Origin: Pseudomonas sp. RIT288 | GTDB lineage: Bacteria > Pseudomonadota > Gammaproteobacteria > Pseudomonadales > Pseudomonadaceae | DNA: 64,000 bases | Direction of reading: 5' to 3' | NCBI RefSeq assembly: GCF_000631985.1 | Contig: NZ_JFYN01000005.1 | Location: 186,001 to 250,000, forward strand | Shown: piece by piece, positions 47,589-62,969 of the stretch | How the letters are laid out: each line of letters starts with the position of its first letter | Position numbering within the stretch: the first letter of the stretch is position 1 | Notes under the pieces: model-generated | Told to the model about the DNA's origin: nothing | Database searches by the model: none | What the model saw: the letters and a program-made list of their open reading frames with translations, nothing else | Translations under genes and position numbers: made by a program

Positions 47589-47664
47589 GTGCCTGAAATC
47601 CAGTAAATGCGGGAGTTTCAGGGCTATTGGGGGCTTTCGAGGTTTTTTGAGTTCCAGGCGATTT

Positions 47665-47714
47665 GGTATTCCCAATGGTATTCCCGGCTACCCGGCGCTA
47701 ATCTTGGGAATACC
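47665..47714. repeat. Probable integrase arm-type sites, left end
   Basis: Two direct GGTATTCCC copies 12-13 bases apart (47665 and 47677) and one inverted GGGAATACC (47706-47714), just before the integrase gene. A matching pair of GGTATTCC occurs at 63101-63120 near the other island end. Position and symmetry suggest arm-type binding sites of the integrase; this is inference. Confidence 0.6.
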
Positions 47715-47738
47715 AAAAGGTGTCATGGAGTACTTCTC

Positions 47739-48995
47739 ATGTGCGCTCAAACCACCCGCCTCTCCGACCGCCAGCTCAAGGCGGTCAAACCGAAAGACAA
47801 GGATTACGTCCTCACCGATGGCGACGGGCTCCAGCTGCGAGTCAGGGTCAATCGCTCGATGCAGTGGAATTTCAACTACCGGCATCCAGTAACCAAGAAC
47901 CGAATCAACATGGCACTCGGCTCCTATCCCGAGGTTTCTCTTGCGCAAGCCAGGAAGAAAACCGTTGAGGCCAGAGAGCTGCTTGCACAGGGCATTGACC
48001 CCAAAGCTCAGCGTAATGAACTGCAGGAAGCCAAACGAGCGGAAACGGAACATACGTTCGAGAACGTAGCCACCGCGTGGTTCGAATTGAAGAAGGATTC
48101 CGTCACCCCGGCGTATGCCGAAGACATCTGGCGCTCGCTCACACTACATGTTTTTCCAAGCATGAAATCAACGCCGTTATCGGAAGTGAACGCCCCGATG
48201 GTCATCAAGCTGCTTCGTCCGATTGAGGCCAAAGGCAGCCTCGAGACGGTTAAGCGAGTGAGCCAGCGCCTTAACGAGATCATGACCTACGGGGTCAACT
48301 CCGGAATGATCTTTGCCAACCCTCTCAGCGGCATTCGAGCGGTATTTAAGAAGCCCAAGAAAGAAAATATGGCCGCGCTGCCACCTGATGAGCTTCCGGA
48401 GCTCATGATGGAAATCGCGAACGCCAGTATCAAGCGGACGACCCGCTGCCTGATCGAATGGCAACTTCATACCATGACCCGCCCCGCCGAGGCGGCCACC
48501 ACTCGATGGGCAGACATCGACTTCGACAAACGCATCTGGACCATCCCTCCGGAGCGCATGAAAAAGCGGCGTCCGCATACAATCCCGTTGACCGAACATG
48601 CACTCTCATTATTGGAGACGCTTAAACCCCATAGCGGCCACAGGGAATATGTGTTCCCGTCGGATAGAAATCCGCGCACCCACGCGAATAGCCAGACCGC
48701 CAACATGGCGTTGAAACGAATGGGTTTTCAGGACCGCTTGGTCAGCCACGGCATGCGCTCCATGGCCAGCACAATCCTAAACGAGCATGGGTGGGATCCG
48801 GAGCTAATCGAAGTCGCGCTGGCGCATGTTGATAAAGACGAAGTTCGAAGCGCCTACAACCGGGCGGATTACATCGAACGCCGGCGTCCGATGATGGCTT
48901 GGTGGAGTGAACATATCCAGAAAGCAGCCACCGGCAGCCTGTCAGCATCAGCCATCAATCAAACCAGGGACCGCAACGTAGTGCCGATCCGCTGA
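47739..48995 (+). CDS. P4-type tyrosine-recombinase integrase
   Basis: 418 residues from MCAQTTRLSDRQLKAVKPK; the upstream frame runs through the arm sites. The N-terminal DUF4102 domain (GDGLQLRVRVNRSMQWNFNY, LGSYPEVSLAQARKK) is followed by the core-binding domain and a C-terminal catalytic domain. The active-site set is visible: Arg in TMTRPAEAATTRW, His/Arg in SHGMRSMAST, His in VALAHVDKDEV and Tyr in RSAYNRADYIERRR. It is intact and most likely drove insertion at ssrA. Confidence 0.95.
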   Translation: MCAQTTRLSDRQLKAVKPKDKDYVLTDGDGLQLRVRVNRSMQWNFNYRHPVTKNRINMALGSYPEVSLAQARKKTVEARELLAQGIDPKAQRNELQEAKRAETEHTFENVATAWFELKKDSVTPAYAEDIWRSLTLHVFPSMKSTPLSEVNAPMVIKLLRPIEAKGSLETVKRVSQRLNEIMTYGVNSGMIFANPLSGIRAVFKKPKKENMAALPPDELPELMMEIANASIKRTTRCLIEWQLHTMTRPAEAATTRWADIDFDKRIWTIPPERMKKRRPHTIPLTEHALSLLETLKPHSGHREYVFPSDRNPRTHANSQTANMALKRMGFQDRLVSHGMRSMASTILNEHGWDPELIEVALAHVDKDEVRSAYNRADYIERRRPMMAWWSEHIQKAATGSLSASAINQTRDRNVVPIR

Positions 48996-49098
48996 GCATC
49001 CAAGGTTAACGATACCGCCGACAGTCCGTGTAGTGCCGCATGGCGACAGAAATGACGACTGTCGCTAAATCTCTGGTATGTCTGCGCTTGTTCAGCCA

Positions 49099-49143
49099 AG
49101 CCCCTGAGTATGGGAAGGCTCCGCATTCCCATACTCAGGGGCT
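49099..49143. terminator. Long perfect hairpin between convergent genes
   Basis: An 18-bp perfect stem (AGCCCCTGAGTATGGGAA and its complement) around a nine-base loop, between the integrase and the convergent recombinase operon. There is no U-tract, so it may be a structural barrier or protein site rather than an ordinary terminator. Confidence 0.6.
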
Positions 49144-49159
49144 CACGCTTAAAGGTCGA

Positions 49160-49438
49160 TCAGGCAACCACGACTTTTGCCTTTCTACGGCGGATCAACC
49201 CTGCTGTTAACTCGTAGTAGTAGATGGTAACTGGAGCTGAGCATCGCAAATAGTGCTCCAGAAACCATCTCACGTGCTTTTCTCTCCAGAACCAGGGAGT
49301 CGCGCAACCCCAGCGTTCACGAATCACCTCGTGCATCCTTTCTGCTTGCCTGATGTGCCGCTGCTGCGTGGCATGTGCACCTTTGAGCACGGGGCGCAGG
49401 AACAACGCTATGTCGAACTCGGCCGTCATCGGCGGCAT
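49160..49438 (-). CDS. Small recombinase-associated protein (core-binding-like)
   Basis: 92 residues, overlapping the 3' end of the preceding recombinase gene by 13 bases. The segment RQAERMHEVIRERWG...PWFWREKHVRWFLEHYL resembles the helical core-binding (SAM-like) domain of phage integrases without any catalytic domain. It could be an accessory DNA-binding protein or a split-off integrase domain. Translation from MTAEFDIALFL, three codons on, is also possible. Confidence 0.6.
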   Translation of the reverse strand: MPPMTAEFDIALFLRPVLKGAHATQQRHIRQAERMHEVIRERWGCATPWFWREKHVRWFLEHYLRCSAPVTIYYYELTAGLIRRRKAKVVVA

Positions 49439-50406
49439 CCGATGTAGGCACTCACCACATCGATGCGGTTATGTCCCAACTCGTGGCTGATCTGCTTACG
49501 GGCTCGCTGATCAAGTGCTCGATCCTCTTGATGAACACGACCACCATTAACGGGTGCAGGAAAGCCGATTAGTTGCTCATAGCGCTCACAGGCGTAGGCC
49601 GCCCGCAGCTCATGAAAACCTTTCAATCCATACTCATGCAGGATGTCCCGTGCCGGTCGCACAACTGCCTGCATAAAGTCTTTATAGCTTTCGTCGGGCG
49701 CCAACAAATTCCGGCTGCCATTGGGTGAGGTCGCGCTGGCCCAATCCAGGGCATCGCGAACTTGATCCGTTGCCGTAATCCAGCGCGGTGCCGAGGCCCC
49801 TGATCGACCACCTTTGGTGCCATCCTGGATGTTGATCTTGCCCAGTTGCCGAACCTCACGTTGCAGTCGGGGCAGATCGGCCAGAATCGCTTCGCGCAGG
49901 CGCATACCAGTCTCACGGGCGAGGAGCACAATGGCACTCACCCTCGATTGCTGACGATCTGACAGCGCCCGCGCGATCAACTCGACCTGCGCACGTTCTT
50001 GGCCTTGCGGAGCCTCACTACGCACGCTTGAGCGCTGCAAGCCCAGCGCCTTACTCGGACTCGGGATTTTGACGTACTGATCACCGCGTAGCGCGGCCAT
50101 CGTTCGGTTCACGCTGGACAGTCGGTTCTGCGCGGTGGCAATGCCGACGTTGCCCTGATCAACCTGCTCCCGCACGTGGACGGCGTACCGCATGAGGATC
50201 TCGCGGTCTATCTGGCGCGCGTCGTTGACCCTCGGTCCTTCATCGGAGCGACACCAATGCACGAACGCCTGCCAGCGATCACTATGGGCTTTGACGGTAG
50301 CAAAATGGCCGTCGCCGAACAGGTCTTTCAGTGCTTGCGGTCCAGCATAGCTAAGCTGGCGACCGAAGCCGAAATTGCGCCCCGCTCGCTTACCGACCCG
50401 AGCCAT
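49426..50406 (-). CDS. Integrase domain-containing protein (tyrosine recombinase-like)
   Basis: 326 residues from MARVGKRAGRNFGFGRQLSY; 19 upstream codons overlap the preceding gene. The N-terminal half binds DNA (KAHSDRWQAFVHWCR). The C-terminal half shows recombinase catalytic landmarks: ETGMRLREAI (Arg), GFHELRAAYACERY (His-x-x-Arg) and SHELGHNRIDVVSAYIG (His and Tyr). This family recurs in Pseudomonas islands beside DUF3987 genes. Its role could be excision, dimer resolution or an independent transposition step. Confidence 0.82.
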   Translation of the reverse strand: MARVGKRAGRNFGFGRQLSYAGPQALKDLFGDGHFATVKAHSDRWQAFVHWCRSDEGPRVNDARQIDREILMRYAVHVREQVDQGNVGIATAQNRLSSVNRTMAALRGDQYVKIPSPSKALGLQRSSVRSEAPQGQERAQVELIARALSDRQQSRVSAIVLLARETGMRLREAILADLPRLQREVRQLGKINIQDGTKGGRSGASAPRWITATDQVRDALDWASATSPNGSRNLLAPDESYKDFMQAVVRPARDILHEYGLKGFHELRAAYACERYEQLIGFPAPVNGGRVHQEDRALDQRARKQISHELGHNRIDVVSAYIGCRR

Positions 50407-50734
50407 TTTTCTGTTCCTGATCAACTGCCGCGAGATCATGCAAAAGGGCTCGCCAGTGCGCACTTACAATCGCGAACTGAGCCCAATCAGTCGGGCGAAA
50501 ACACAGCGTGTTGTCGGTGACGTAAAGATGCGCACCCTCCTCTTTCAACCATTGAATAATGGCTGTCGTAGAGGCGATAGCTTTATGGGTGGTGGCGACA
50601 GCGGCGACAACCCTTGTCCTGCCTGGGTTTGAGCGTGGCGACAAAGTGGCGACAGTAGCGGCGACAAATCGCGCTTTGGGCTCCTTTTGACGCTGAGCCA
50701 GATGGTTGCGCAGCGCTTCATCAAGATTAAACAT
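50390..50734 (-). CDS. Hypothetical island protein
   Basis: 114 residues from MFNLDEALRNHLAQRQKE; I do not recognise it. The middle is an Ala/Val/Thr-rich stretch encoded by GTCGCC-type repeats (FVAATVATLSPRSNPGRTRVVAAVATTHK), and the C-terminus (IIQWLKEEGAHLYVTDNTLCF) looks folded. It overlaps the recombinase gene downstream by 17 bases and the DUF3987 gene upstream by eight, so the three are one translational unit. Confidence 0.6.
   Translation of the reverse strand: MFNLDEALRNHLAQRQKEPKARFVAATVATLSPRSNPGRTRVVAAVATTHKAIASTTAIIQWLKEEGAHLYVTDNTLCFRPTDWAQFAIVSAHWRALLHDLAAVDQEQKNGSGR
50594..50666. repeat. GGCGACA repeat cluster 1
   Basis: Five copies of GGCGACA on the plus strand (starting 50594, 50603, 50637, 50648, 50660) inside the 114-residue hypothetical gene, where the minus strand encodes Val-Ala/Val-Ala-Thr units. 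A similar cluster in opposite orientation lies at 52876-52952. Confidence 0.7.
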
Positions 50735-52127
50735 GGCGCACCTCGAAGGTGTGGCCATCGGTGATCAACCACTGATGATCAATCAACTCGACCAGCAGCT
50801 TGGCGGCATGACGACTGCTCTTGCGGGCAAAGCGGGGACCGTTGCGATTCAATTCACGAATACTGAAACGCTTCCAATCTTTGACCTGTAGCCATCGCAG
50901 CAGCCGGTCTGCCTCCTCTTTTACTCGACACACTGGCTCCTGCTCAGTCAGGCGCTGGATCTCGGTGAGGTAGTAGCCGACTAAAGCGGAGGCCCGTTGG
51001 ATATGGTCGACCTCCACGACGCTGCTCTCCTCCACAACTGCAAGAATGCCAGCGACGCGCAGCAGGTTATCGGCGGCCTTTGATCCGCTGGGCCGTACGC
51101 TGGCCAGTTCGCCAAACTCCCCCAGCTGAGCTTCGATAGCATCATGCAAATCAATCCAGCGACGACGCGCCAGCTGACTGAGGCTCAGCATTGACAGCTG
51201 CAAGGCACCGTCAGCGGAAAGTGACCACGGCTGATAAAACAGAGCCGAAAGGCGGTGATGATAGCGCTTTAGGGCGGCGTCTTTGGACAAATCGACAGCC
51301 TGGTAGCTGCGTTGTCCGGCCAGGCTAATGGGCCAGGTCACCAAGCAGCGCCCTAGAATCCCTTGCCCCTGCAGCAACGGGTCACTGAGTAACTGCATAG
51401 CCAAGTACGGTTGCAGCATTAGGTGCAGGCTCAAGCGTCGGTCGTAGGCTCGCAAGCTTTCACCAACCATGGAGCGCGCACGATCTATCGGACTGCCATC
51501 CCAGAGTGACGACAAGGTCGTAACCGCTTTCAAACGGTTATCCCGACTCATGGTGCTACTACCGAGGAATTGTCCGCCCTCGTCACAGAACAGTCCCATG
51601 CTCGGCAAGTCATGACAGAGCCCTTTGATCAGGGCCTCGATAGTCGGGTCCGTGGTGATCAGCCGAGGGGCCGAAGGCTCCGCTTCGAGCGGTGCGCTTT
51701 TTGTGGGGGCGGGATCGGCAGGATTGATACGCTGCGCCTGTCGCTGTGCGGCACGGTAACGGACAAGTTGTTCGCGATAGCGCTGCCACTGCTCACGCTC
51801 CCATTGCCGTGCTGGCAGCAATGCACATCGGTCTGCTGCGGTCTTGCGATCACCAGATGCGGCCACTGTGATCAGGTACAGCGACAGCGGATAGTTTCTC
51901 CCGTCGAGCTGTAAGCCTGCATGACCTTGGGTGGCCAGTGCCGAGGCGGACAATACCGATTGCGCGGCCAGTGCCCGGGGCACGCCGATGACCTCGGCCA
52001 TGCGCTCAACCGCGGGCCCAAGAATTCCACCCAGTGCCTGGACAGGATAGGGCTCAGCCACAGGCTTCGCCTCGATTAACGGTCGGGGGGACCGTGGGAG
52101 TTCAAGCTTCGGATCTAACTGCTGCAT
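50727..52127 (-). CDS. DUF3987 (YfjI-type) putative ATPase/primase-like protein
   Basis: 466 residues. The N-terminal half includes MAEVIGVPRALAAQSVLSASALATQGHAGLQL and a P-loop-like AASGDRKTAAD. It then has PTIEALIKGLCHDLPSMGLFCDEGGQFLG, the pattern of DUF3987 proteins, with Walker-B-like LFCDEGG. The C-terminus (about 385-466) reads like a winged helix. Members occur in integrative elements and phages and are thought to act in element replication. It leads the minus-strand operon ending with the recombinase genes. Confidence 0.78.
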   Translation of the reverse strand: MQQLDPKLELPRSPRPLIEAKPVAEPYPVQALGGILGPAVERMAEVIGVPRALAAQSVLSASALATQGHAGLQLDGRNYPLSLYLITVAASGDRKTAADRCALLPARQWEREQWQRYREQLVRYRAAQRQAQRINPADPAPTKSAPLEAEPSAPRLITTDPTIEALIKGLCHDLPSMGLFCDEGGQFLGSSTMSRDNRLKAVTTLSSLWDGSPIDRARSMVGESLRAYDRRLSLHLMLQPYLAMQLLSDPLLQGQGILGRCLVTWPISLAGQRSYQAVDLSKDAALKRYHHRLSALFYQPWSLSADGALQLSMLSLSQLARRRWIDLHDAIEAQLGEFGELASVRPSGSKAADNLLRVAGILAVVEESSVVEVDHIQRASALVGYYLTEIQRLTEQEPVCRVKEEADRLLRWLQVKDWKRFSIRELNRNGPRFARKSSRHAAKLLVELIDHQWLITDGHTFEVRHV

Positions 52128-53753: not shown

Positions 53754-54908
53754 ATGCATATCGTGGGCGGTCTTTACCGAGAGTTATGCGATATACCATT
53801 CTGGGACGCCACGATGGGTTCGGGAGGCCGCGCGGCGATGGCCATGATCGACCTATCACCAGGCTCTGAATTTCATACCTACGCCTCCCCCGCCGACGAT
53901 GCTGCAATTCTGGCGCTTCAAAGCAGGGGGGTGGTTGCCACCACTGTTGCCCGTCCCTCGTCGATCGTCTTTGCCTATTTTCATCCTTTATCTTCTCCCC
54001 ACGTCGAGCCGCCGCGAGAGGCCCTTAGTCGCCTGCCGGCATTGCAAGTGACAGGTGAAGCGGTGTTGCGATTCGGTTTTTTGGAGGGCGATGCAATCGT
54101 CACAGCCGACCGTGCTGTTTATGATCCACAGACATGGCGTAACCCACAGCCGTTTTCAGCAAATGGCTCGACTGCGGACGAATTAGCGCTGGTGCTCAAC
54201 GAGCTTGAACTCCGTGAAGCTGCAGGCATGTACAACCTTGATCAAGCCGCACTTTGCCTGATAAACAAGGCGGGCGCTCAGGTGGTTGTTGTTAAAAGAG
54301 GGGCTTGCGGTGCGTCGGTCTATGACGCCGCGGGAAACGTCTCCCACGTGCCGGCTTACCGCTCAAGCAAGATTTTTAAAATCGGTACGGGAGACATTTT
54401 CAGTGCGGTATTTGCGGTGTATTGGGCGGAAAGAAAAATGCCTGCCGCCCAAGCTGCTGACTTAGCGTCGCGGTCAGTCTCGCTTTACTGTGAAACGCGC
54501 ACATTTAAGTTTGACCCTCTTTCCCTTTCTCAGCGTCACCCCGTTGCTGCGAGAGTGGGGGCACGAATTTGTATTGAGGGGAGTACCGAGTCCATCGGCC
54601 AACGTTACACCCTGGAAGAAGCCCGTTTTGCCTTGCGCGAACTGGGAATGGAAGTGATGAACCCAGAAACGGAGCAAGAAGCCGGCGCTTGGAGCGCGGA
54701 TGCCACGCTCGTCATTGATGATGGCCTATCCCCACAGGCGTTGATTCGAATTCGGAAACATCAGGTGCAAGGAAGGCCTGTCGTCGTGCTGCACGAGCGA
54801 TCAAATACGACAATCTCGCTGAGCACGGATATTGAGACAACCGATGACTTCGCATCAGCCATCTACCTTGCAGCTTGGGCGGCAGGTGAAAGCGTAGCCT
54901 TGAGCTGA
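53754..54908 (+). CDS. PfkB-type kinase fused to a deoxyribosyltransferase-like domain
   Basis: 384 residues from MHIVGGLYREL, chosen for GAGGG six bases upstream. Residues 1-260 follow the PfkB/ribokinase plan: MGSGGRAA near 21-28 and the catalytic GTGDIFSAVFA at 211-221, with D214 as the base. Residues about 268-375 (RICIEGSTESIGQRYTLEEARFALRELGMEVMNPE, then DATLVIDDGLS) look like a nucleoside 2-deoxyribosyltransferase/TIR-like Rossmann domain, though the catalytic Glu is unclear. Role unknown; a nucleoside kinase plus N-glycosidic-bond enzyme would suit deazaguanine handling. It is 68 bases before the TIR-TGT gene, so probably the first gene of the cassette. Confidence 0.7.
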   Translation: MHIVGGLYRELCDIPFWDATMGSGGRAAMAMIDLSPGSEFHTYASPADDAAILALQSRGVVATTVARPSSIVFAYFHPLSSPHVEPPREALSRLPALQVTGEAVLRFGFLEGDAIVTADRAVYDPQTWRNPQPFSANGSTADELALVLNELELREAAGMYNLDQAALCLINKAGAQVVVVKRGACGASVYDAAGNVSHVPAYRSSKIFKIGTGDIFSAVFAVYWAERKMPAAQAADLASRSVSLYCETRTFKFDPLSLSQRHPVAARVGARICIEGSTESIGQRYTLEEARFALRELGMEVMNPETEQEAGAWSADATLVIDDGLSPQALIRIRKHQVQGRPVVVLHERSNTTISLSTDIETTDDFASAIYLAAWAAGESVALS

Positions 54909-54976
54909 TCACAACAATAAATGGCATCGCCCTAGGGTTGTGCAATGGAATGTAACCAGTGAGGCCCGACCAACCC

Positions 54977-56362
54977 ATGGCGGACATTTACATCATTTAT
55001 GCCAAGGAAAACCGTGACACTGCGGTGAAGATTCGAGACCTCCTCTTGTCCTCGTGGAGTGTCTGGTTGGACGACCTTATCGTTGGCGATTTCGACTCAG
55101 TCATAAAAGAGAACATTCAAAGTACGAGATGCGTAATCGCGCTGTATTCATCCTTCGCGAGTAAACCTGCCGTGAAGGGGGAACTCAGCCTTGCGGGTAA
55201 ATACGGCAAAAAGGTCATTCCATTGATTCTGGATGACAGCGATCCGCCTTATCCGTATGGACACTTCAGCAGCGTTGATTTCCGCGCATGGCAAGGAGAC
55301 GTAGATGCAGAAGCAGTGAAAATGCTGCAGGTGAAGATCGGCGAAGTCGTCAAACCTCGATGCCCGCCGACTCGGCTTGAGGCAGTTCATAACGGACTGT
55401 TGCCAATTCCGAACGTGTTCATGTCTGTTTCATCTCATGAGACCCAGTTCACACCCGCCGCGGCACTGAGCGTATTGAAGGCACACAACACTGGGTCAAT
55501 CCTGGTGTCTGCATACGATCTGGTGAAATCCAAAGAGCGCAAAAAGATGGTCAAGGAAATTCAGGCCTATCGCAGGCAAGGTGGGTTCGTCCTGATTGAT
55601 TCTGGGAACTATGAAGCCGATCGCATGGACGACAAGGATTGGACGCCCGCTCACTTCAAGGAGGCTTTGCTGGGGACACCGCATGACTGGGCGTTTTGCT
55701 TTGATAAAATGACGCCGAATAAGAATCCGGACAAAGCAGTTGAAGAGGTTGTTCGGGCAGTCAGACGAGATTCCAAGCATACCCAGGCCCCTGTACTGCC
55801 CATCGTCCATGTGTCGCAAGATGAACCCGGTTTAGCGCGCCTGCCTCAAATAGTGCGAGGCGTCTCCGAACAGCTCCGCCCTCCGGTTATCGCGATTGCT
55901 GAAAGGGAACTGGGGGCAGGTCTGGCGCTTCGGGCAAAAACGATGAAACGAGTAAGGACGGAACTCGACAAGCTGCCTTACTACCAGCCCATCCATCTGC
56001 TGGGCACCGGAAACCCATGGAGCATTGCAGTGCTGGTAGCTGCGGGAGCCGACACCTTTGACGGGCTGGAATGGTGCCGATTTTCCATCGACCCCAGACG
56101 GGGCCGCCTTCATCACTTCCAACATTTTGACTTTTTCAAGAATTCTGGGGACCGCACACCGTTTCTCGACATCGTGGACGCCAACCCTGATATTGAGTAT
56201 GCGGGCCGGGTCGCCCTGTATAATCTCGAGTACTATGAAGAGTTTGGGCACATGATGCGTTCCATGATTGCAACTAAGGACGCCGAACTTTTCGCGACAG
56301 GCATCGTGCGAATGTTTAACGCCCAAGAGCTAAGAAAGCTCTTCCCGGAGATATTTCCATGA
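54977..56362 (+). CDS. TIR domain fused to a tRNA-guanine-transglycosylase-like domain
   Basis: 461 residues from MADIYIIYAKENRD; a GTG six codons upstream is the alternative. Residues 1-125 are a TIR domain: D-I-Y-I-I-Y strand, VWLDD, SSFASKPAVKGELSLAGKYGKKVIPLIL, with E69 at the NADase catalytic position. Residues about 145-461 match the TGT barrel: GGFVLIDSGNYE (D208, equivalent to the general-base Asp of DSGGFQ) and HLLGTGNPWSIAVLVAAGADTFDG (D362, equivalent to the nucleophile). No CxCxxC zinc cluster follows. The domain resembles DpdA or Cap10 more than housekeeping Tgt. The stop overlaps the next ATG (ATGA). Confidence 0.85.
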   Translation: MADIYIIYAKENRDTAVKIRDLLLSSWSVWLDDLIVGDFDSVIKENIQSTRCVIALYSSFASKPAVKGELSLAGKYGKKVIPLILDDSDPPYPYGHFSSVDFRAWQGDVDAEAVKMLQVKIGEVVKPRCPPTRLEAVHNGLLPIPNVFMSVSSHETQFTPAAALSVLKAHNTGSILVSAYDLVKSKERKKMVKEIQAYRRQGGFVLIDSGNYEADRMDDKDWTPAHFKEALLGTPHDWAFCFDKMTPNKNPDKAVEEVVRAVRRDSKHTQAPVLPIVHVSQDEPGLARLPQIVRGVSEQLRPPVIAIAERELGAGLALRAKTMKRVRTELDKLPYYQPIHLLGTGNPWSIAVLVAAGADTFDGLEWCRFSIDPRRGRLHHFQHFDFFKNSGDRTPFLDIVDANPDIEYAGRVALYNLEYYEEFGHMMRSMIATKDAELFATGIVRMFNAQELRKLFPEIFP

Positions 56363-57057
56363 CCAGCTATAGCGCCGAGGCGCTGTCTAGAGCGGTAGCC
56401 GCGGTCTGCCCTGACATCCGCTTGCGCATTGAGGAAGGTGTAGTGTCAGACGAACACCACCTTTGGTGGGAGTTGTCATGCTGCATCCTGAGCAGCCAGG
56501 TACCCTACCCGCTCGCCATGGCGGCAGCAGACGCAATCGACGCGCGCGGATTTCTTCATAAAACTGAAGGAAATCAGGAAGACCTCGCCGAGCGTTTGTT
56601 TGAGGTACTGAGTACCCCTCTGGATGTAGAAGGCAAAAAACGCAGCTACAGGTTCCCCAAAGCCAAAGCCGGTCACCTGGCATCGACTTGGGCTGCGGTA
56701 GCAGGCACTGGCGGCTCCCTGAAAGCCTTGATCAGCAGGGACGTTAACGACGTACGGGCATGGCTGGTTGCTCACGCCTGCGGCATTGGGCCTAAGCAAG
56801 CAAGCATGTTCTTGCGCAACTGCGGAGTCACTTATGACTTGGCAATCCTGGATCGGCATGTTCTCAATTACATGTCTGCACAAGGCATTTACTCAGGCGC
56901 TCAAACGTCCATTTCTGGGCTGAGCCAGTACGGTCGTCATGAACAGCGACTGCGCGACCACGCGCGGGAGATGGACTGTCCGGTTGGGCTGCTCGATTGG
57001 GCAATATGGATCGTCATGCGCGTCGCGAACCGCAAGCAGGAGGCTGTTTTAGTATGA
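56359..57057 (+). CDS. OGG-type HhH-GPD DNA glycosylase
   Basis: 232 residues. The helix-hairpin-helix is AHACGIGPKQASMFLRNCG with catalytic Lys K146, followed by YDLAILDRHVLNYM with catalytic Asp D165, as in 8-oxoguanine glycosylase/lyases. LSSQVPYPLAMAAADAI resembles the LSxQ element of the family. It is shorter than eukaryotic OGG1 and lacks its N-terminal domain. It overlaps both neighbours by four bases. In type IV CBASS an OGG homologue (Cap11) accompanies TGT and QueC homologues. Whether this protein cuts DNA or uses the fold for nucleobase binding is unknown. Confidence 0.88.
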   Translation: MTSYSAEALSRAVAAVCPDIRLRIEEGVVSDEHHLWWELSCCILSSQVPYPLAMAAADAIDARGFLHKTEGNQEDLAERLFEVLSTPLDVEGKKRSYRFPKAKAGHLASTWAAVAGTGGSLKALISRDVNDVRAWLVAHACGIGPKQASMFLRNCGVTYDLAILDRHVLNYMSAQGIYSGAQTSISGLSQYGRHEQRLRDHAREMDCPVGLLDWAIWIVMRVANRKQEAVLV

Positions 57058-57647
57058 GCATCGTGACACTCGTTTCCGGGGGCCTGGACTCCACACTGGT
57101 CGCAAAACTGGCGATTGAAGAAGGCCTGCGAATTTATCCGCTCTTCGTTGATTACGGCCAGCGGGCACGTGAGAGGGAGCTAGCTGCCTGCAGGCTGGCC
57201 ATGAAGAAACTCGGCCTCCCCGAGCCCGAGATCGCCGATTTGTCGGGGTTCGGGAAATTGATACGTTCAGGGCTTACGGATCCGAATCTCCACATCATCG
57301 AAGACGCCTTCACACCTGGTCGAAATATGCTTTTCCTGCTGATTGCGGCTGCATATGCCCATCAGAAAAATGCAGATGCCATTTCAATAGGCCTGCTTCA
57401 TGAAAGCACTAGCTTATTCCCTGATCAGACCTCTGGATTCCTGGCCGAGGCTGAGCGCATGATATGTCTTTGCATGGGCAAACAGATCAAGGTACTCGCC
57501 CCGCTGGCGCTGTTCACAAAACCTGATGTCGTTGTATTGGCAGCCGAAAAGGGTATTACGCAGACCTACTCCTGCCATCTGGGTGAGGAAGAGGCATGTG
57601 GTAACTGCATCGCCTGCAACGAATTCAAATTTGAGGAAAACCAGTAA
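57054..57647 (+). CDS. QueC-like enzyme (7-deazaguanine ATP-dependent ligase family)
   Basis: 197 residues from MSIVTLVSGGLDSTLV; the frame extends 19 codons upstream inside the glycosylase gene. The PP-loop SGGLDST is at 8-14, PGRNMLFLLIAAAYA at 88-102, and the zinc site C174/C182/C185/C188 (SCHLGEEEACGNCIACNEF) is complete. The canonical D-[YF]-SGYPDCR substrate segment is replaced by HESTSLFPDQT (116-126), keeping only P-D. Housekeeping QueC converts CDG to preQ0. The altered pocket and immune-like context point to a Cap9-type specialised role. The stop and the next start overlap (TAATG). Confidence 0.88.
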   Translation: MSIVTLVSGGLDSTLVAKLAIEEGLRIYPLFVDYGQRARERELAACRLAMKKLGLPEPEIADLSGFGKLIRSGLTDPNLHIIEDAFTPGRNMLFLLIAAAYAHQKNADAISIGLLHESTSLFPDQTSGFLAEAERMICLCMGKQIKVLAPLALFTKPDVVVLAAEKGITQTYSCHLGEEEACGNCIACNEFKFEENQ

Positions 57648-58114
57648 TGGGCGGAAGCAGCTCAGGTGGATGGAGCCGACTCGGCGATGTTAAATCGCTG
57701 GAGCAGAAAGCCAAAGCAGCGCTCAACGAGGGCAAGCGCAACGTATTCATCAGTTTCGCGACTGAGGATATGAATGAGGTCAATCTGCTACGAGCTCAGG
57801 CGAAAAATGACAATAATGATATCGAGTTCAACGACCACTCCGTGCGTGAGCCCTACGACAGCGTTCAGGCCGAGTACATCAAGCGCAAAATTTCCGAACG
57901 CATCAACCGCGCCTCGGTGACTGTTGTCTATATCTCCGACGACACTTCTCAGAGTAAATGGGTTAAATGGGAGGTTGAGAAGAGCCTTGAGCTTGGAAAG
58001 AAAGTGGTGGCGGTGCACTCGGGTAGTCGGTTCAACGGAACCGAACCCAAGTGGATCTCAGACCATGGGATCAAGACTGTTGCCTGGTCGAAACTCGCTG
58101 ACGAGCTCAAGTAG
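57647..58114 (+). CDS. Small TIR-like protein with Gly-Gly N-terminal tail
   Basis: 155 residues. The first nine are MGGSSSGGW, then a charged linker to residue 30 and a ThsB/DUF1863-type TIR fold: NVFISFATEDMNEVNLLRAQ, a middle segment ending EYIKRKISERINRASVTVVYISDDT, and SKWVKWEVEKSLELGKKVVAVH with likely catalytic E109. Removal of the initiator Met would expose a flexible Gly-Gly end. It is the last gene of the cassette, translationally coupled to the QueC-like gene, so the QueC-like enzyme may act on it. It could be the NAD-consuming effector, a signal producer, or a modified sensor. Confidence 0.85.
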   Translation: MGGSSSGGWSRLGDVKSLEQKAKAALNEGKRNVFISFATEDMNEVNLLRAQAKNDNNDIEFNDHSVREPYDSVQAEYIKRKISERINRASVTVVYISDDTSQSKWVKWEVEKSLELGKKVVAVHSGSRFNGTEPKWISDHGIKTVAWSKLADELK

Positions 58115-58186: not shown

Positions 58187-59053
58187 TCAGTTGTCCTTGC
58201 GCGCTTCCCACTGGGTATGTTCCCGCGAAAAGGCATTCTCAGCGTCGCCCACAAATTTCGACAAATCGTCATCTGCGACTAGCTCTTGCGCTTGCTCTCG
58301 GATGAGGGTGATTTCATGCGCCGTAAGAGCATAAGAGGCAGAGAGTTCGGTGAAGCGCTTCGCCTGCATCCACGTCAGTAAGCTGGCTGCGACAGCTATG
58401 AACACATCGGTAGGAAAATACTGGTACTGGACGTTGGCGACCTTAATTAACGCGCAGATGAAAGCGACCGCGTTCACCAAGATCAGGGCAGTGAAAAAAT
58501 GCTTCGCCGCACGGGTGTTAAATCTTGCCTTTCGCGAATACCAATCCAACTGATCGTTGATACGAAACTCTACATACGTATCACGTCGCGAAGCGAAGTC
58601 ACCGGCCCTTAGCTGCTTCATCACCGCTGTAAGTTGGTGCGCCGATAAATGACTGATCAGCTTGTCCGATACCCCCGGATTTTGCCGTACCACCTGCGTA
58701 AGCTTTTTTAAGAGGTGTTGCTTTGCAGTCTCATCGCTCTCGTGAAAAGGCTCTGCCCTAGAAACGTAGCGCCACGTTATCGTCTTGATGGACTCAGCGA
58801 CTGCACGTCCAGAGTACCAAACCCGCTCCGGCCTCATGGCCGCTAGGTAAACGGAGCTGGCTAATGCCCCGGCGAGCAGCGCTGCTTGGATGGCAGCCGA
58901 GATCCAATGCGGATAATTGATAACGGACACGACCGCAGCTGCCACCAATAACACCAGATTAACAATCAGGGCGGTTAGGAAATGCGTCTGAGCATCCCCT
59001 GAGAGCTTGTCGGCCGCTTGGTAGAGACCCGGGAAATCAGAGCTTTGCATCAA
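58187..59053 (-). CDS. SLATT/DUF4231 membrane protein
   Basis: 288 residues with two pairs of membrane helices (about 25-45 with 52-70, and 185-203 with 213-230). The conserved C-terminal region SLATT proteins share is present: VGDAENAFSREHTQWEARKDN. SLATT proteins are proposed pore-forming effectors that work with nucleotide-signal or NAD-cleaving partners. Its ATG overlaps the stop of the TIR gene upstream (ATGA). It ends 72 bases from the convergent Gly-Gly TIR gene; no clear terminator is seen between them. Confidence 0.85.
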   Translation of the reverse strand: MMQSSDFPGLYQAADKLSGDAQTHFLTALIVNLVLLVAAAVVSVINYPHWISAAIQAALLAGALASSVYLAAMRPERVWYSGRAVAESIKTITWRYVSRAEPFHESDETAKQHLLKKLTQVVRQNPGVSDKLISHLSAHQLTAVMKQLRAGDFASRRDTYVEFRINDQLDWYSRKARFNTRAAKHFFTALILVNAVAFICALIKVANVQYQYFPTDVFIAVAASLLTWMQAKRFTELSASYALTAHEITLIREQAQELVADDDLSKFVGDAENAFSREHTQWEARKDN

Positions 59054-59529
59054 ACGGCCTCATAACCGAGATTTTTGTAAATGCTGTCTGGGAAATGGTA
59101 ATTCCCGCGCTGGCTGTTGGTAGGGTGCCCTAGCGCATGAGCAATGATAGCGGCCGAGTAAGGAACGAAGATTGCTCCGACGTCCTGCATGACGGGTGGA
59201 CAGAGGTCTGCGTTCAGGTAGCGACCTCCATCCAGGTTGACACCGATCAGATTGCACCCCTTCTCTATCGCAACTTGAATTTCCCAACGCACATATTTGT
59301 GTTTTGATCGGGTGTCTCTGCCGATCAAAAGCATGAAGGTGCCGGCCATGTCGATGCGCTCTCGGCATTTCCGTTTGATATAGTCCTCATCCTCTGACTC
59401 CAGGGCCATATTCAACTGGCAATCGGCGAAATTGAAATCTAAATGGGTGTTCTTTCGCCATGCGCCCATCAGCTCGTACATGTGCCGATCGGTGCTGCTG
59501 AAACCCACAAATGTTCTAGGTAATCCCAT
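59050..59529 (-). CDS. ThsB-like TIR (DUF1863) protein
   Basis: 159 residues from MGLPRTFVGFSSTDRHMYEL; GGAG lies seven to ten bases upstream and the nine earlier codons are dispensable. It has the MTH538/ThsB pattern: a short first strand, YIKRKCRERIDMAGTFMLLIGRDT, then KYVRWEIQVAIEKGCNLIGVNL with likely catalytic E83. ThsB proteins make a cyclic-ADP-ribose-type signal in Thoeris, but no ThsA (SIR2-SLOG) is near. The coupled SLATT protein is the natural candidate effector. Confidence 0.82.
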   Translation of the reverse strand: MGLPRTFVGFSSTDRHMYELMGAWRKNTHLDFNFADCQLNMALESEDEDYIKRKCRERIDMAGTFMLLIGRDTRSKHKYVRWEIQVAIEKGCNLIGVNLDGGRYLNADLCPPVMQDVGAIFVPYSAAIIAHALGHPTNSQRGNYHFPDSIYKNLGYEAV

Positions 59530-59583
59530 TACTTCTCCTTGATTATGTTGAGGCAACGCGCGAGCACTCGCGCACCAGCGGGC

Positions 59584-60837
59584 TCACTTTTCTGCAGGAG
59601 AGAGCGTTGCCAGCCGCTCTGGCCTGATGGCGAACAGCTCATCCTTGCCGGCCATATAGGTTTCGATTTCCCACTGTGCATCGGCTGCGCCCAAAAACTT
59701 GTGCTCGAACGCCCCGGCTTCGGTCGGATTTTCGATAGCGAAATAGCAATTGGCTAACGTAGCGTAGATCCAACGCTTGTCTGGGCGATCGAAGAAGTCC
59801 GAGGAGTCCAATAGGGGCAGCAGTGACTTCACAATCATCTGGCGAATTTTATGGGCGCACATGAAGTCGAACACCTTTTCAGAGTGTTCTGCCTGAACCT
59901 GGGCACGAAACTCGAAGCACAGCGCTAGGTTTTCACCATTGTAATAGTCGCGTTTCACCTCAAATCCGCGTCGATAAAACTGGATCGCTGCATCGAGCGA
60001 CTCACGGTCGCCTTCACGCAACCAAAGTCGCTTGGTGATCGCACCGGCCACGCCCACAGTCTCGGGGTCGTTCGAGGCCTCAGGATCCAGCGAGCGGATG
60101 ATTTCAAGCCCGGCGCGCAATGCCGAAGTCTCATCGGGGAGCTTTGCCTTGTACGTGGTTAATGCCAGTTTCTGCAGAATGTCAGGTTCGCCAGGCTTCA
60201 TGTCCCTGGCTGCCGCGAACTCCTGGCTCGCTAGATCGTGTCTGCTTTGGCGCATGAACTTCTCACCTTCACGCATATGACGTGAAAAGCGCTGTTGTGC
60301 TTCCTCGGCTTCCCCCAGCAACTCTTCGTATTCTTCATCGGACATTCTTGGCGATAGGAGCTTGGGGAGAAATGTGTAAACGGGGCTGTCCACGGCTTGG
60401 GCAGCCATTACAGCGTCAATGAGTTCCCCAAGATCCTTAACTGCCCTTTTGGCTTCTCGCGCCAGAATATCGTCTCCGAAGTGCTGGTACCGAAATGTGC
60501 TGACATGGTTCAGGTCAAAGTACAGCTTGCCCTGATCCTCATTCATGATGATGGTTGAGTTGGGCCTGAGTGCGTGCCGCACGCCCAGCTCATAAACGGC
60601 ATTTACGTTTCCAGTAGAAATGTCGGCTATGACCAGATCGGCCCTAAGGAGCATCTCGTACATTTTCACGTCGATGAACCCAGACTGCGTGATTTCATCG
60701 GCCCTGATACATCTCAAGCCTTGAGCAGTGACGGCAGGCTCGATAATGGTCTCGTAAGTGGCATTCAGATCAAGCGTGCGGCCGGTTTCATATTCGGTTT
60801 TCTTGCCGAAACCCATCACGACAAAGCATACCTTCAT
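59584..60837 (-). CDS. DUF4071/TRAFs-binding-like protein with DRT/TIR-like N-domain and TPR region
   Basis: 417 residues from MKVCFVVMGFGKKTEYETGR; 26 upstream codons are in frame. Residues 1-110 form a nucleotide-deoxyribosyltransferase-like fold (CFVVMGFG, TYETIIEPAV, GFIDVKMYEMLLRADLVIADISTGNVNAVYELGVRHAL), with the Glu in NAVYELG in the catalytic position. The C-terminal about 250 residues are helical, with TPR-like repeats and a DUF4071 look. It precedes the TIR gene by 54 bases on the same strand and probably opens the operon. It may be a sensor or second NAD/nucleotide-cleaving component. Confidence 0.75.
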   Translation of the reverse strand: MKVCFVVMGFGKKTEYETGRTLDLNATYETIIEPAVTAQGLRCIRADEITQSGFIDVKMYEMLLRADLVIADISTGNVNAVYELGVRHALRPNSTIIMNEDQGKLYFDLNHVSTFRYQHFGDDILAREAKRAVKDLGELIDAVMAAQAVDSPVYTFLPKLLSPRMSDEEYEELLGEAEEAQQRFSRHMREGEKFMRQSRHDLASQEFAAARDMKPGEPDILQKLALTTYKAKLPDETSALRAGLEIIRSLDPEASNDPETVGVAGAITKRLWLREGDRESLDAAIQFYRRGFEVKRDYYNGENLALCFEFRAQVQAEHSEKVFDFMCAHKIRQMIVKSLLPLLDSSDFFDRPDKRWIYATLANCYFAIENPTEAGAFEHKFLGAADAQWEIETYMAGKDELFAIRPERLATLSPAEK

Positions 60838-61296
60838 TAATAATCGTCCCTTGCCAGCAAAAAGTCCCAGGCAGGCTCGCAGACTGCTTGCCACCACCTT
60901 GTCGAAAACGTGCAAATACCTGCGAAAAGCATTAAGCGCTATCAGCCGGGCTGAGAGTAGGATCCATAGATATCAAAATGCCGCCTCCCGATCCACTGCC
61001 ACGCCGGAGCGTCATGACAATTACTGTCCTGAATCCCTTAGCTAAATGGTGCTGGCACCGGCCACCTTACTCTCTGCCCTCACCGCTTGAACGGCATTTC
61101 TCGACTAGGCCGAATAAATAGGGGGGGTAATTGCGCTGACATCGTTCTATTGCCCGGCGGGACGTTCGAGGACCGTCACTACCCACGCGATGCGGAATCA
61201 AAGCTCCGCCAGACAGTAACACGCCATCATGATTGCAGAAAGCCATCACGTGCGAGACTATTTAGCCTGACGCTTGGATCCCAGGAGATGGAAAAG
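60838..61296. other. Divergent promoter region between the DUF4071 operon and Pycsar
   Basis: About 460 bases without a supportable gene. It must contain promoters for both divergent operons. A run of seven G residues occurs at 61121-61127. No obvious operator palindrome was found by eye. Confidence 0.5.
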
Positions 61297-62199
61297 ATGT
61301 TGGATAGACTCAAAGGCTCCAGCGGCCAGCCAGAAGCGCTACGACTGCTAAAGCGCCAGGAATTGGTACAGGAAGACAGCGAGCGTGCAGGCTTCCTACT
61401 AAGCAAGGGTGAGCTCATCGAGTTTGAGCCAGACACCCACCTCATCACTTATGGTGAAGCTTCGAGCGACGTATATTTTTTGCTCTCAGGCGACGTCAGG
61501 ATTCTAAAGGGTAAGCACATATTGAATGAAAGCTTTCGCGCTGGTAATTGCGTCGGTGAGATCGCAGCCATTCAAGTCGTTCTGAGGACGGCCACAGTCA
61601 TCGCAAACACCAGTGTGGTGGCGCTGAAAGTGGCACGGGAAGATTTTGTGTCATTTATCGATACCTTTCCTGCCGCGAGTAAGGCACTAGCTTTTGATTT
61701 GGCGGCTCGGCTGGAACGTAGAAATGATCGAATCGCCACGCCAGGCCGTAAGCACCGGATATTTGTGATTTCTTCCACCGAAGCGATGAGTATCGCGCTT
61801 ACAGGCATACGCTTCTTCAGTCGCCATGATGAATTTGAATTTTGCCCTTGGCCGATCGAGACATTCCGGGCGTCAAGCTATCCGCTGGATGATCTAGAGG
61901 CTGAGCTAGAAACTGCGGACTTCGCTATTGCCATTGCTCAGGGCGATGACGTCACCGAATCAAGGGACTCTCGAAAGCCTAGCCCGCGAGATAACGTTCT
62001 GTTTGAACTCGGCCTTTTCATGGGTCGGCTTGGGCGCAAACGCACCCTATTGATGACTCAGGAGGGGTGTGACCTCAAGCTTCCAAGCGATCTCAGCGGG
62101 ATGATGGTGGTGAAGTATTCGAAACAAATCTCAAGCACACCATCTGAGCAGCTCCAATTGTGGCAACACGCTAAGGATCATTTCGGAGCGCTTATCTAA
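61297..62199 (+). CDS. pycTIR: PycTIR: cyclic-nucleotide-binding TIR-like effector
   Basis: 300 residues from MLDRLKGSSGQ, chosen because AGGAG lies nine bases upstream; an ATG three codons earlier sits directly on that site. Residues about 20-145 are a CRP-type cNMP-binding domain with the phosphate cassette FRAGNCVGEIAAIQVVLRTATVI (GE at 88-89, R97). Residues 152-300 are a PF10137-type TIR-like nucleotide-binding domain: HRIFVISSTEAM and SPRDNVLFELGLFMGRLGRKRTLLM, with E237 catalytic. In Pycsar the cyclic pyrimidine nucleotide activates NAD+ cleavage. It is followed by the cyclase with a one-base overlap. Confidence 0.92.
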   Translation: MLDRLKGSSGQPEALRLLKRQELVQEDSERAGFLLSKGELIEFEPDTHLITYGEASSDVYFLLSGDVRILKGKHILNESFRAGNCVGEIAAIQVVLRTATVIANTSVVALKVAREDFVSFIDTFPAASKALAFDLAARLERRNDRIATPGRKHRIFVISSTEAMSIALTGIRFFSRHDEFEFCPWPIETFRASSYPLDDLEAELETADFAIAIAQGDDVTESRDSRKPSPRDNVLFELGLFMGRLGRKRTLLMTQEGCDLKLPSDLSGMMVVKYSKQISSTPSEQLQLWQHAKDHFGALI

Positions 62200-62969
62200 T
62201 GAACCACTCTGAGTTATCTCTGGTTGAAATCGCCGCGCGCGAAGGACTGAAAGCCGCGATACAAGGTTGGGAAAAGGTCGGGCACCTCATCAGAGCAAAC
62301 GAGATGTTCGAAAGCATGGGGATGGAATCCTACGCCGCCGACAGCGCGATACCTGGCCACCCCTTTGTTGAACCGGGAAATCCAAAAGTAGATGAGTTTG
62401 TGGCGCTGGTGGTCGACATGCGCAAATCCTCAGCAAGGCTCAAGACTCATCTAAGCGGTACAAAGGTAAAAAGCGGCTTTCAGCGTATTTACTATGAAAC
62501 CTCTGCCTTGCTTCCTGCGCTCGCTCAGACGGCGCTTTTCAAAAACGGCCACGTAACAGAATATCTAGGTGACGGTGTGTTGATCCTTTTCAAGGTCGAC
62601 ACAGACAACCGCGTCCAATCCGTGAAAGACGCTTATAACGTTGCAGCAAACTGCGTCAAAACCACTAGAAATATTGTTAACGACCTCATTCGCGAACAGT
62701 TGGATTTGCCACCATTGGATATCGGAGCGGGCCTGTCAATGAGCCAAGCTCTAGTGACGATGGTAGGCCTTCCTCCGAACCAGCAGCCGAAAGCAGTCGG
62801 AACATGCGTGTGGGAGGCATCGAAGTTGAGCGACGGAACCAACCAGGTTAACGTTGCCAAGACGTTGTATGACGCGTGGCCGTCAGAAAAAGGGGGTACC
62901 TTACGATTTGAGCCACTCAAGTCTTTGAAACACAACGTCGAGGGATTCAAGGTGGTAGCAGGCTCCTAA
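62199..62969 (+). CDS. pycC: PycC: pyrimidine-type class III nucleotide cyclase
   Basis: 256 residues. Class III cyclase signatures are DEFVALVVDMRKSSARL (metal-binding D73), VTEYLGDGVLILFKV (GDG, second metal Asp D125) and IGAGLSMSQALVTMVG. The short stand-alone cyclase downstream of a CRP-TIR effector is the Pycsar layout, in which PycC makes cCMP or cUMP upon phage infection. The N-terminal 60 residues are helical and may regulate dimerisation. Base specificity cannot be read reliably by eye; purine cyclases share these motifs. Confidence 0.9.
   Translation: MNHSELSLVEIAAREGLKAAIQGWEKVGHLIRANEMFESMGMESYAADSAIPGHPFVEPGNPKVDEFVALVVDMRKSSARLKTHLSGTKVKSGFQRIYYETSALLPALAQTALFKNGHVTEYLGDGVLILFKVDTDNRVQSVKDAYNVAANCVKTTRNIVNDLIREQLDLPPLDIGAGLSMSQALVTMVGLPPNQQPKAVGTCVWEASKLSDGTNQVNVAKTLYDAWPSEKGGTLRFEPLKSLKHNVEGFKVVAGS

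Follow-up and report, generated by a model that had tools for sequence, protein, structure and literature searches.

Type IV CBASS (cyclic oligonucleotide-based antiphage signalling system) is a tight operon in which a QueC-family ligase (Cap9) and a Cap10-type TGT (tRNA-guanine transglycosylase) accompany a partner with an MGG N-terminus, the CD-NTase (cGAS/DncV-like nucleotidyltransferase) that defines a CBASS; an OGG homologue of type IV CBASS has been named Cap11. According to PMC13279940, the MGGS motif of the CD-NTase is required for its NDG modification, and in qatABCD a QueC-family enzyme (QatC) accompanies a protein whose N-terminal Gly is essential (QatB, MGTS tail). Here we describe a cassette at positions 53754..58114 of a stretch of Pseudomonas sp. 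RIT288 (the window, that is the whole 64,000 nucleotides analysed, positions 186,001 to 250,000 of contig NZ_JFYN01000005.1, assembly GCF_000631985.1) that shares with type IV CBASS the QueC-family ligase, the Cap10-type TGT, the partner with an MGG N-terminus and the tight operon, but differs from it in having no CD-NTase, in bearing the tail on a TIR and, in most loci, in having a TIR joined to the TGT as a fusion.

The reading that we favour, and consider probable though well short of secure, is that four of its genes form a conserved operon, in which QueC would attach a 7-deazaguanine-type base to a small TIR at its N-terminal Gly, a Cap10-type TGT with its fused TIR would bind the tagged end, and the TIRs would form the immune output. 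On its sequence features the cassette is likely to be a new antiviral system. A sequence-only reading of the window had proposed a relative of type IV CBASS that is built on TIR proteins and uses 7-deazaguanine chemistry, and the shared QueC/TGT pair, the conservation of the unit and the lack of a CD-NTase bear this out, whereas the 'sensor' and 'effector' roles that it gave to the two TIRs exceed the evidence. Described as a type IV CBASS-like tagging module with a TIR in place of the CD-NTase, the proposal is largely right, a CBASS-like way of working being suggested by analogy.

Organization of the cassette

The five genes of the cassette are as follows.

53754..54908, plus strand: PfkB-family (ribokinase) kinase, an optional cassette gene (ATG start; Pfam PfkB 1.6e-08)
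54977..56362, plus strand: TIR-TGT fusion (ATG start; Pfam TIR_2 1.9e-12 and TGT 4.5e-07)
56359..57057, plus strand: OGG-type HhH DNA glycosylase (Pfam Ogg-HhH 6.6e-25; PDB N-glycosylase/DNA lyase 3n0u 8.4e-13)
57054..57647, plus strand: QueC-family enzyme, predicted N-terminal nucleobase ligase, Cap9-like (ATG start; Pfam QueC 1.2e-40; PADLOC CBASS QueC 1.7e-27)
57647..58114, plus strand: small ThsB-like TIR with an N-terminal MGGSSSGGWSRLGD tail, predicted tag acceptor (ATG start; Pfam ThsB_TIR 1.2e-23; PADLOC ThsB 3.4e-17)

Coordinates and Pfam matches agree with the earlier description of five plus-strand genes, the last four overlapping by 1-4 bases, except for the 'DRT' half assigned to the kinase (see below). 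The successive overlaps from TIR-TGT through OGG and QueC to the small TIR are 4, 4 and 1 bases, and a 68-base gap separates the kinase gene from TIR-TGT.

The cassette is conserved as a unit

Loci were found with degenerate peptide patterns, which miss divergent relatives, and the set of 57 consists of 55 genome contigs from a one-genome-per-species scan, one viral contig and the window itself, with near-duplicates among Pseudomonas and Ruegeria. Over these loci TGT was counted in 57, OGG in 56, QueC in 54, the small TIR in 54 and the kinase in 36, and all four core genes (TGT, OGG, QueC and small TIR) are present in 54 of the 57. The hosts are distant from one another, being recorded as Pseudomonadota, Nitrospira, Clostridiales, Gemmatimonadetes and KSB1, together with bins labelled Micrarchaeota and Paceibacterota (labels as recorded). 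Core gene order is kept and, when the in-frame start nearest the preceding gene is taken, the TGT-OGG overlap is 4 or 1 bases in 46/54 loci and the OGG-QueC overlap 4 or 1 bases in 48/54. The gene-order search that had been suggested for this cassette therefore finds homologues that occur together as a unit, not ones that never do so. The three loci with an incomplete core are L045, which ends inside OGG at the contig end, L055, which is a short piece, and L046, in which genes are split. A chance neighbourhood was rejected, as order and overlaps recur across loci.

TIR-TGT fusion homologues numbered 593 among 7999 scored candidates. Run against 299 genomes sampled from the phylum of the host, the CBASS TGT profile matched five, of which four hold full cassettes (the window genome included, and one of the four duplicating locus L036; L066 appears to be the L036 contig, both having 7799 bases and the same coordinates); the fifth match, in genome G131, has no cassette-type QueC, OGG or TIR within the 14 kb read. 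A class-level search around genome G199 (48 genomes) gave three matches, none of them new. Plasmid records were recovered 13 times by the cassette-type QueC and 13 times by TIR-TGT, and the two plasmids inspected carry the whole core together with kinase, TPR-S and SLATT genes, to which the public annotation gives generic names. A phage-encoded cassette was rejected, there being no match in 50,697 phage records (E 1e-5) and a single viral contig (L057), whose layout and coordinates are the same as those of L008, so that it is probably not independent. Elsewhere in the set the small TIR gene of L011 (10640-11200) is split across frames, and in L025 (4892-8864) TIR-TGT is in two pieces about 2.4 kb apart.

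The QueC-family enzyme and the OGG glycosylase

The type IV CBASS operon examined for comparison was the following.

L060:4905-7978: cyanobacterial plasmid operon with QueC, TGT, SMODS CD-NTase and, in place of OGG, a SLATT-like protein (24.9 bits, Pfam cut-off 27)

Unlike the cassette, this operon has no OGG. The cassette QueC matches QueC (2pg3 and 3bl5) and Cap9 (9nto) in the PDB, and its profile compared with the Cap9 of L060 gave 99.7% probability. The PP-loop, the RN and F-x-D-Q motifs, Asp124 and four Cys are invariant in 25/25 sequences, and Asp124 of the CDG (7-carboxy-7-deazaguanine) site and the aromatic Phe122 align with Asp117 and Tyr115 of Cap9. In a tree of 25 of the 54 cassette QueC, 30 canonical QueC and one Cap9, the cassette sequences group as a single clade (99/97), separate from the canonical ones. 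A housekeeping queuosine operon was rejected, the cassette clade being separate from canonical QueC and having F-x-D-Q (25/25) instead of YPDC.

The cassette also differs from qatABCD, as no QatA ATPase or QatD TatD nuclease is encoded among the ten cassette-island genes scanned, the cassette QueC keeps an Asp that QatC has replaced by Thr, and the NCBIfam QatC model matches the cassette QueC at 0.0085 only. Similar in its neighbourhood is Cluster 4 of the QueC family, which according to PMC13329287 lies next to PfkB-NDT genes, as the cassette QueC lies near a PfkB-family gene. Its motifs YGQ(x)6E and CH(x)5CxxCxGCxK differ from YGQ(x)5E and CH(x)6CxxCxxC in the cassette, and the C-terminal domain of the cassette kinase is not recognised as NDT.

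In the OGG-type glycosylase Lys146 and Asp165, which we take to be catalytic, are kept in 25/25 sequences. The claim that the key catalytic residues of the cassette are intact thus holds across the aligned sets, while its extension to 'probably functional' rests on that conservation.

The small TIR carries a CD-NTase-like tail

The small TIR starts with MGG in 54/54 cases, 53 of them called by script and the last being L011, whose start is out of frame with the remainder of the gene. Among the 120 of 3699 small TIR homologues listed, 115 are annotated with an MGG start, and in the remaining five an in-frame MGG occurs within 12 residues. The 26 further small TIRs of the cassette loci serve as a control, and none of them has MGG in its first 60 residues. 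The tail is Gly/Ser-rich and in close relatives continues W-S-R-L-G-D, the Trp being kept in only 19/36 rows of a diverse alignment. Glu109, presumably the catalytic residue, is kept in all 36 rows of that alignment (35 cassette TIRs and a neighbouring TIR). The CD-NTase of L060 carries MGGSGGGFFSNSDI (MGGSGGGF), the same kind of tail as the small TIR. From these sequence features the small Gly-Gly TIR is predicted to occupy the place of the tagged CD-NTase and to be the substrate of QueC.

The TGT domain is closest to Cap10

The best PDB fold match of the TIR-TGT model is 9ntn, Cap10-CdnD with NDG (Cap10 bound to the NDG-tagged CD-NTase), and 9ntn is also the best PDB match of the TGT by sequence. 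The motif FDGLxWxR is common to the cassette TGT and the Cap10-type TGT, and the cassette TGT profile compared with the TGT of L060 gave 98.4% probability. A search of seven cassette genomes with the Cap10 alignment gave a single match in each, as long as the TGT protein of the cassette itself. In the 27 aligned TIR-TGT proteins Glu69 of the TIR and Asp208, Asp243 and Asp362 of the TGT are always kept; we assume that the Glu and the aspartates are catalytic. Both sequence and model comparisons thus place TIR-TGT where Cap10 stands, as the predicted reader of the tag. A full-length TGT with its TIR part is encoded in 50/57 loci. Among the remaining seven, L042 and L049 begin at a contig end, in L025 and L046 a piece of the TIR is encoded in a frame of its own, L055 is fragmentary, and in L045 and L053 the TGT stands alone. 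The TIR-TGT fusion of the sequence-only reading is accordingly real in the window and widespread but is not universal.

These residues bear also on an alternative in which no protein is tagged at all, QueC, TGT, OGG and the kinase making or swapping a modified base in phage DNA or tRNA and the TIRs being separate toxins. The gene families are those of nucleic-acid modification enzymes, the active-site Asp residues of the TGT are intact, and 7-deazaguanine DNA modification is known in phages (PMC6884629). DNA chemistry would not, however, need the invariant MGG tail of the TIR that matches the CD-NTase tail, and Cap10, which the TGT domain resembles most, binds protein tails. We give this alternative a small though appreciable chance.

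No CD-NTase accompanies the cassette

No CD-NTase was found by Pfam and PADLOC among the ten island genes scanned, as the sequence-only reading had stated, nor in the window's own genome. The search was extended to 50 of the 56 genomes behind L002-L057, and in 42 of these 50 none was found; in the other eight the CD-NTase lies on a different contig from the cassette QueC, so that a CD-NTase is not a usual member of this operon elsewhere. Because the defining CD-NTase was tested for and not found, the cassette is not a CBASS, and a CD-NTase acting in trans was rejected on the same counts (none in the own genome or 42/50 others, separate contigs in eight). A broken or unusual type IV CBASS with its CD-NTase encoded elsewhere would account for the presence of the same QueC and TGT families, but these searches have largely refuted it and we regard it as very improbable.

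Neither PADLOC nor NCBIfam names the cassette as a system. The QueC-family survey of July 2026 (PMC13329287) does not use the words TIR, TGT or OGG in its main text, and the literature searched yielded no paper recognisable as describing a TIR, QueC and TGT system, a mention being possible in the Science deazaguanylation paper or in subscription papers outside this scope.

Proposed mechanism

As we picture the favoured tagging reading, removal of the start Met would expose Gly2 of the MGG-TIR. QueC would then use ATP to activate the carboxylate of CDG and couple it to Gly2, as Cap9 does on the CD-NTase (homology and the shared tail point to this step), and the TGT domain would hold the tagged tail, as the match to Cap10 with NDG suggests, which in most loci would pair its own TIR with the small TIR. 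Infection would release or activate the TIR, leading, to judge from the conserved Glu, to NAD consumption or an ADP-ribose signal, and a SLATT membrane protein or a TPR-S protein, present in many though not all loci, may respond to the signal. The OGG-type glycosylase probably checks the state of DNA and gates activation, which is the weakest step of the scheme. If the scheme is true, 7-deazaguanine protein tagging would be a general control of immune enzymes rather than a peculiarity of one CBASS type, and the same tail and reader fold on two unrelated partners, CD-NTase and TIR, would offer a direct test of control by the tag. TIR relatives also serve plant and animal immunity.

Several observations weigh against this scheme. 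L046 keeps its TGT and has no QueC match in the last 1.9 kb of the contig. The cassette QueC has Gln where both Cap9 and canonical QueC have the Cys of the YxDC motif, and in pairwise PDB comparison it scores higher against canonical QueC (69.4 bits) than against Cap9 (53.1 bits). In the QueC tree Cap9 falls on the cassette side, but as a single sequence on a very long branch, and the cassette QueC is at most a tentative sister of Cap9. Stand-alone TGTs with no TIR match occur in L045 (7962-8996, 344 residues) and L053 (8019-9005, 328 residues), and in L053 it is an MGG-TIR and a SLATT gene that accompany the TGT: the SLATT gene (7126-8022) overlaps the TGT start by 4 bases, and OGG, QueC and the MGG-TIR follow. 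As neither of these TGTs has a TIR, a pair of TIRs cannot be the rule everywhere. Because L053 still has OGG, QueC and an MGG-TIR without the fusion, we take TGT, OGG, QueC and the MGG-TIR as the constant parts.

The chief difficulty, however, is the supply of the base. In 11 of 51 cassette genomes (L011, L015, L020, L022, L024, L037, L040, L044, L048, L050 and L054) the cassette QueC is the sole full QueC. The QueE model TIGR04349 gave nothing in five of the 11 and weak matches in six (best 7.1e-09), TIGR04508 gave nothing in nine and 1.5e-04 and 9.1e-04 in two, and QueD is missing in 10/11, whereas 10/10 control genomes score for QueE and QueD (one QueD weakly). These 11 hosts seem unable to make CDG. 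Weak QueE matches alone do not prove absence, since two hosts with canonical QueC (G033 and G035) also give weak TIGR04349 matches, and the absence of QueC, QueD and QueE is not certain because several of the genomes are bins. The base of these hosts could come from host salvage or be supplied by phage, or the conjugated group could be another guanine-like acid, and the origin of the base in hosts without the queuosine pathway is a question that the cassette raises.

The same 11 hosts favour an alternative in which the tag is itself the alarm, the TIR being tagged only when infection supplies the base, through phage 7-deazaguanine metabolism or OGG-type excision from phage DNA. In its favour, the cassette QueC is the sole full QueC in 11/51 hosts, 10 of which lack QueD and none of which has a clear QueE; six of the 11 hosts are represented in alignment A4, and there the cassette QueC residues are conserved; and OGG is present in 56/57 loci. 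Canonical QueC, however, is present in 40/51 hosts, the window host included, no phage substrate is known, and because the window host has both canonical QueC and an adjoining queE, tagging could run there without infection. We consider this alternative distinctly unlikely. A broader idea, speculative and in our view unlikely, is that the N-terminal Gly nucleobase tag is a portable immune switch, in which the MGG tail with QueC and TGT serves either CD-NTases or TIRs, and that in hosts without 7-deazaguanine synthesis it is the phage that supplies the base and so arms the TIR.

Recurrent neighbours of the cassette

Beyond the cassette the window encodes the following genes.

58187..59053, minus strand: SLATT (2TM, two-transmembrane) protein, predicted pore-type effector (Pfam SLATT_3 4.2e-43, SLATT_1 3.6e-38)
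59050..59556, minus strand: second ThsB-like TIR, without an MGG start (Pfam ThsB_TIR 1.2e-13; PADLOC ThsB 1.2e-39)
59584..60915, minus strand: TPR-S protein with a TIR-like N-terminal domain (Pfam TPR-S 3.4e-21; PADLOC TIR effector 2.6e-08, residues 50-158)
61087-62199: first gene of a Pycsar pair, CRP-like domain and TIR effector (PADLOC PycTIR 1.6e-75)
62199-62969: second gene of the Pycsar pair, weakly matching PycC cyclase (best 5.5e-11, PADLOC)
47607-48995: phage-type integrase, upstream of the defence genes
49426-50463: second Integrase_1 gene, upstream of the defence genes
50727-52127: DUF3987 gene, upstream of the defence genes

The SLATT, second ThsB-like TIR and TPR-S genes (58187-60915) are convergent with the cassette, and the second TIR gene overlaps the SLATT gene by 4 bases. 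A TPR-S homologue (E < 1e-60) is found in 35/57 loci and a SLATT homologue (E < 1e-30) in 23/57, counts that are lower bounds because no flank exceeds 8 kb and many loci have less; the strand and side of both vary between loci, and close homologues of the second TIR occur in several. In the 299-genome sample strong TPR-S matches (at least 79 bits, a threshold picked after the scores had been seen) occur in 4/4 cassette genomes versus 5/295 others (p 3.9e-07), in each of the four on the cassette contig and within about 5 kb. The sequence-only reading overlooked these partners, and TPR-S, the ThsB-like TIR and SLATT are recurrent companions of the cassette. They are candidate sensor or effector parts, though not found in every locus.

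These companions suggest Thoeris-like signalling, in which the small TIR would act as ThsB, its nucleotide opening the SLATT pore or triggering TPR-S, and QueC and TGT would only regulate ThsB. The small TIR belongs to the ThsB family, with its conserved Glu; ThsB-type TIRs are described as makers of signalling nucleotides (PMC11204291) and SLATT is predicted to be a nucleotide-responsive pore (PMC7159879). With such products in view, the phrase 'without a cyclic oligonucleotide' in the sequence-only reading goes further than the sequence can show. The recurrence of SLATT (23/57) and TPR-S (35/57) is in keeping with this, as is the SLATT gene of L053 that overlaps a TGT without a TIR. Unlike Thoeris, the cassette has its TIR in a QueC/TGT operon and with an MGG tail, and no ThsA-type gene is present among the ten genes scanned; many loci, some of them short-flanked, yielded no SLATT or no TPR-S, and both genes vary in strand and side. 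On balance we think this reading rather unlikely.

The kinase gene and the surrounding island

The kinase consists of PfkB-family residues 1-264 and a C-terminal alpha/beta domain of about 120 residues, and its GTGD motif is kept in 22/22 sequences. The sequence-only reading had assigned a DRT domain to the C-terminal part, which finds no support here though it may yet be correct: PF05014 had no match among the C-terminal pieces of 13 kinase homologues, profile comparison of the C-terminus with five NDT domains gave background level only, and a fold search gave no match reaching residues 265-384. Nor is the kinase a fixed part of the cassette, being missing in 21/57 loci. In the kinase-less loci L043 (2664-3671) and L044 (1259-2512) a weak SLATT_1 match, below the cut-off, and a TPR-S gene were seen directly upstream of TIR-TGT. 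The integrase, Integrase_1 and DUF3987 genes upstream of the defence genes of the window (47607-52127) form the pattern expected of a mobile element.

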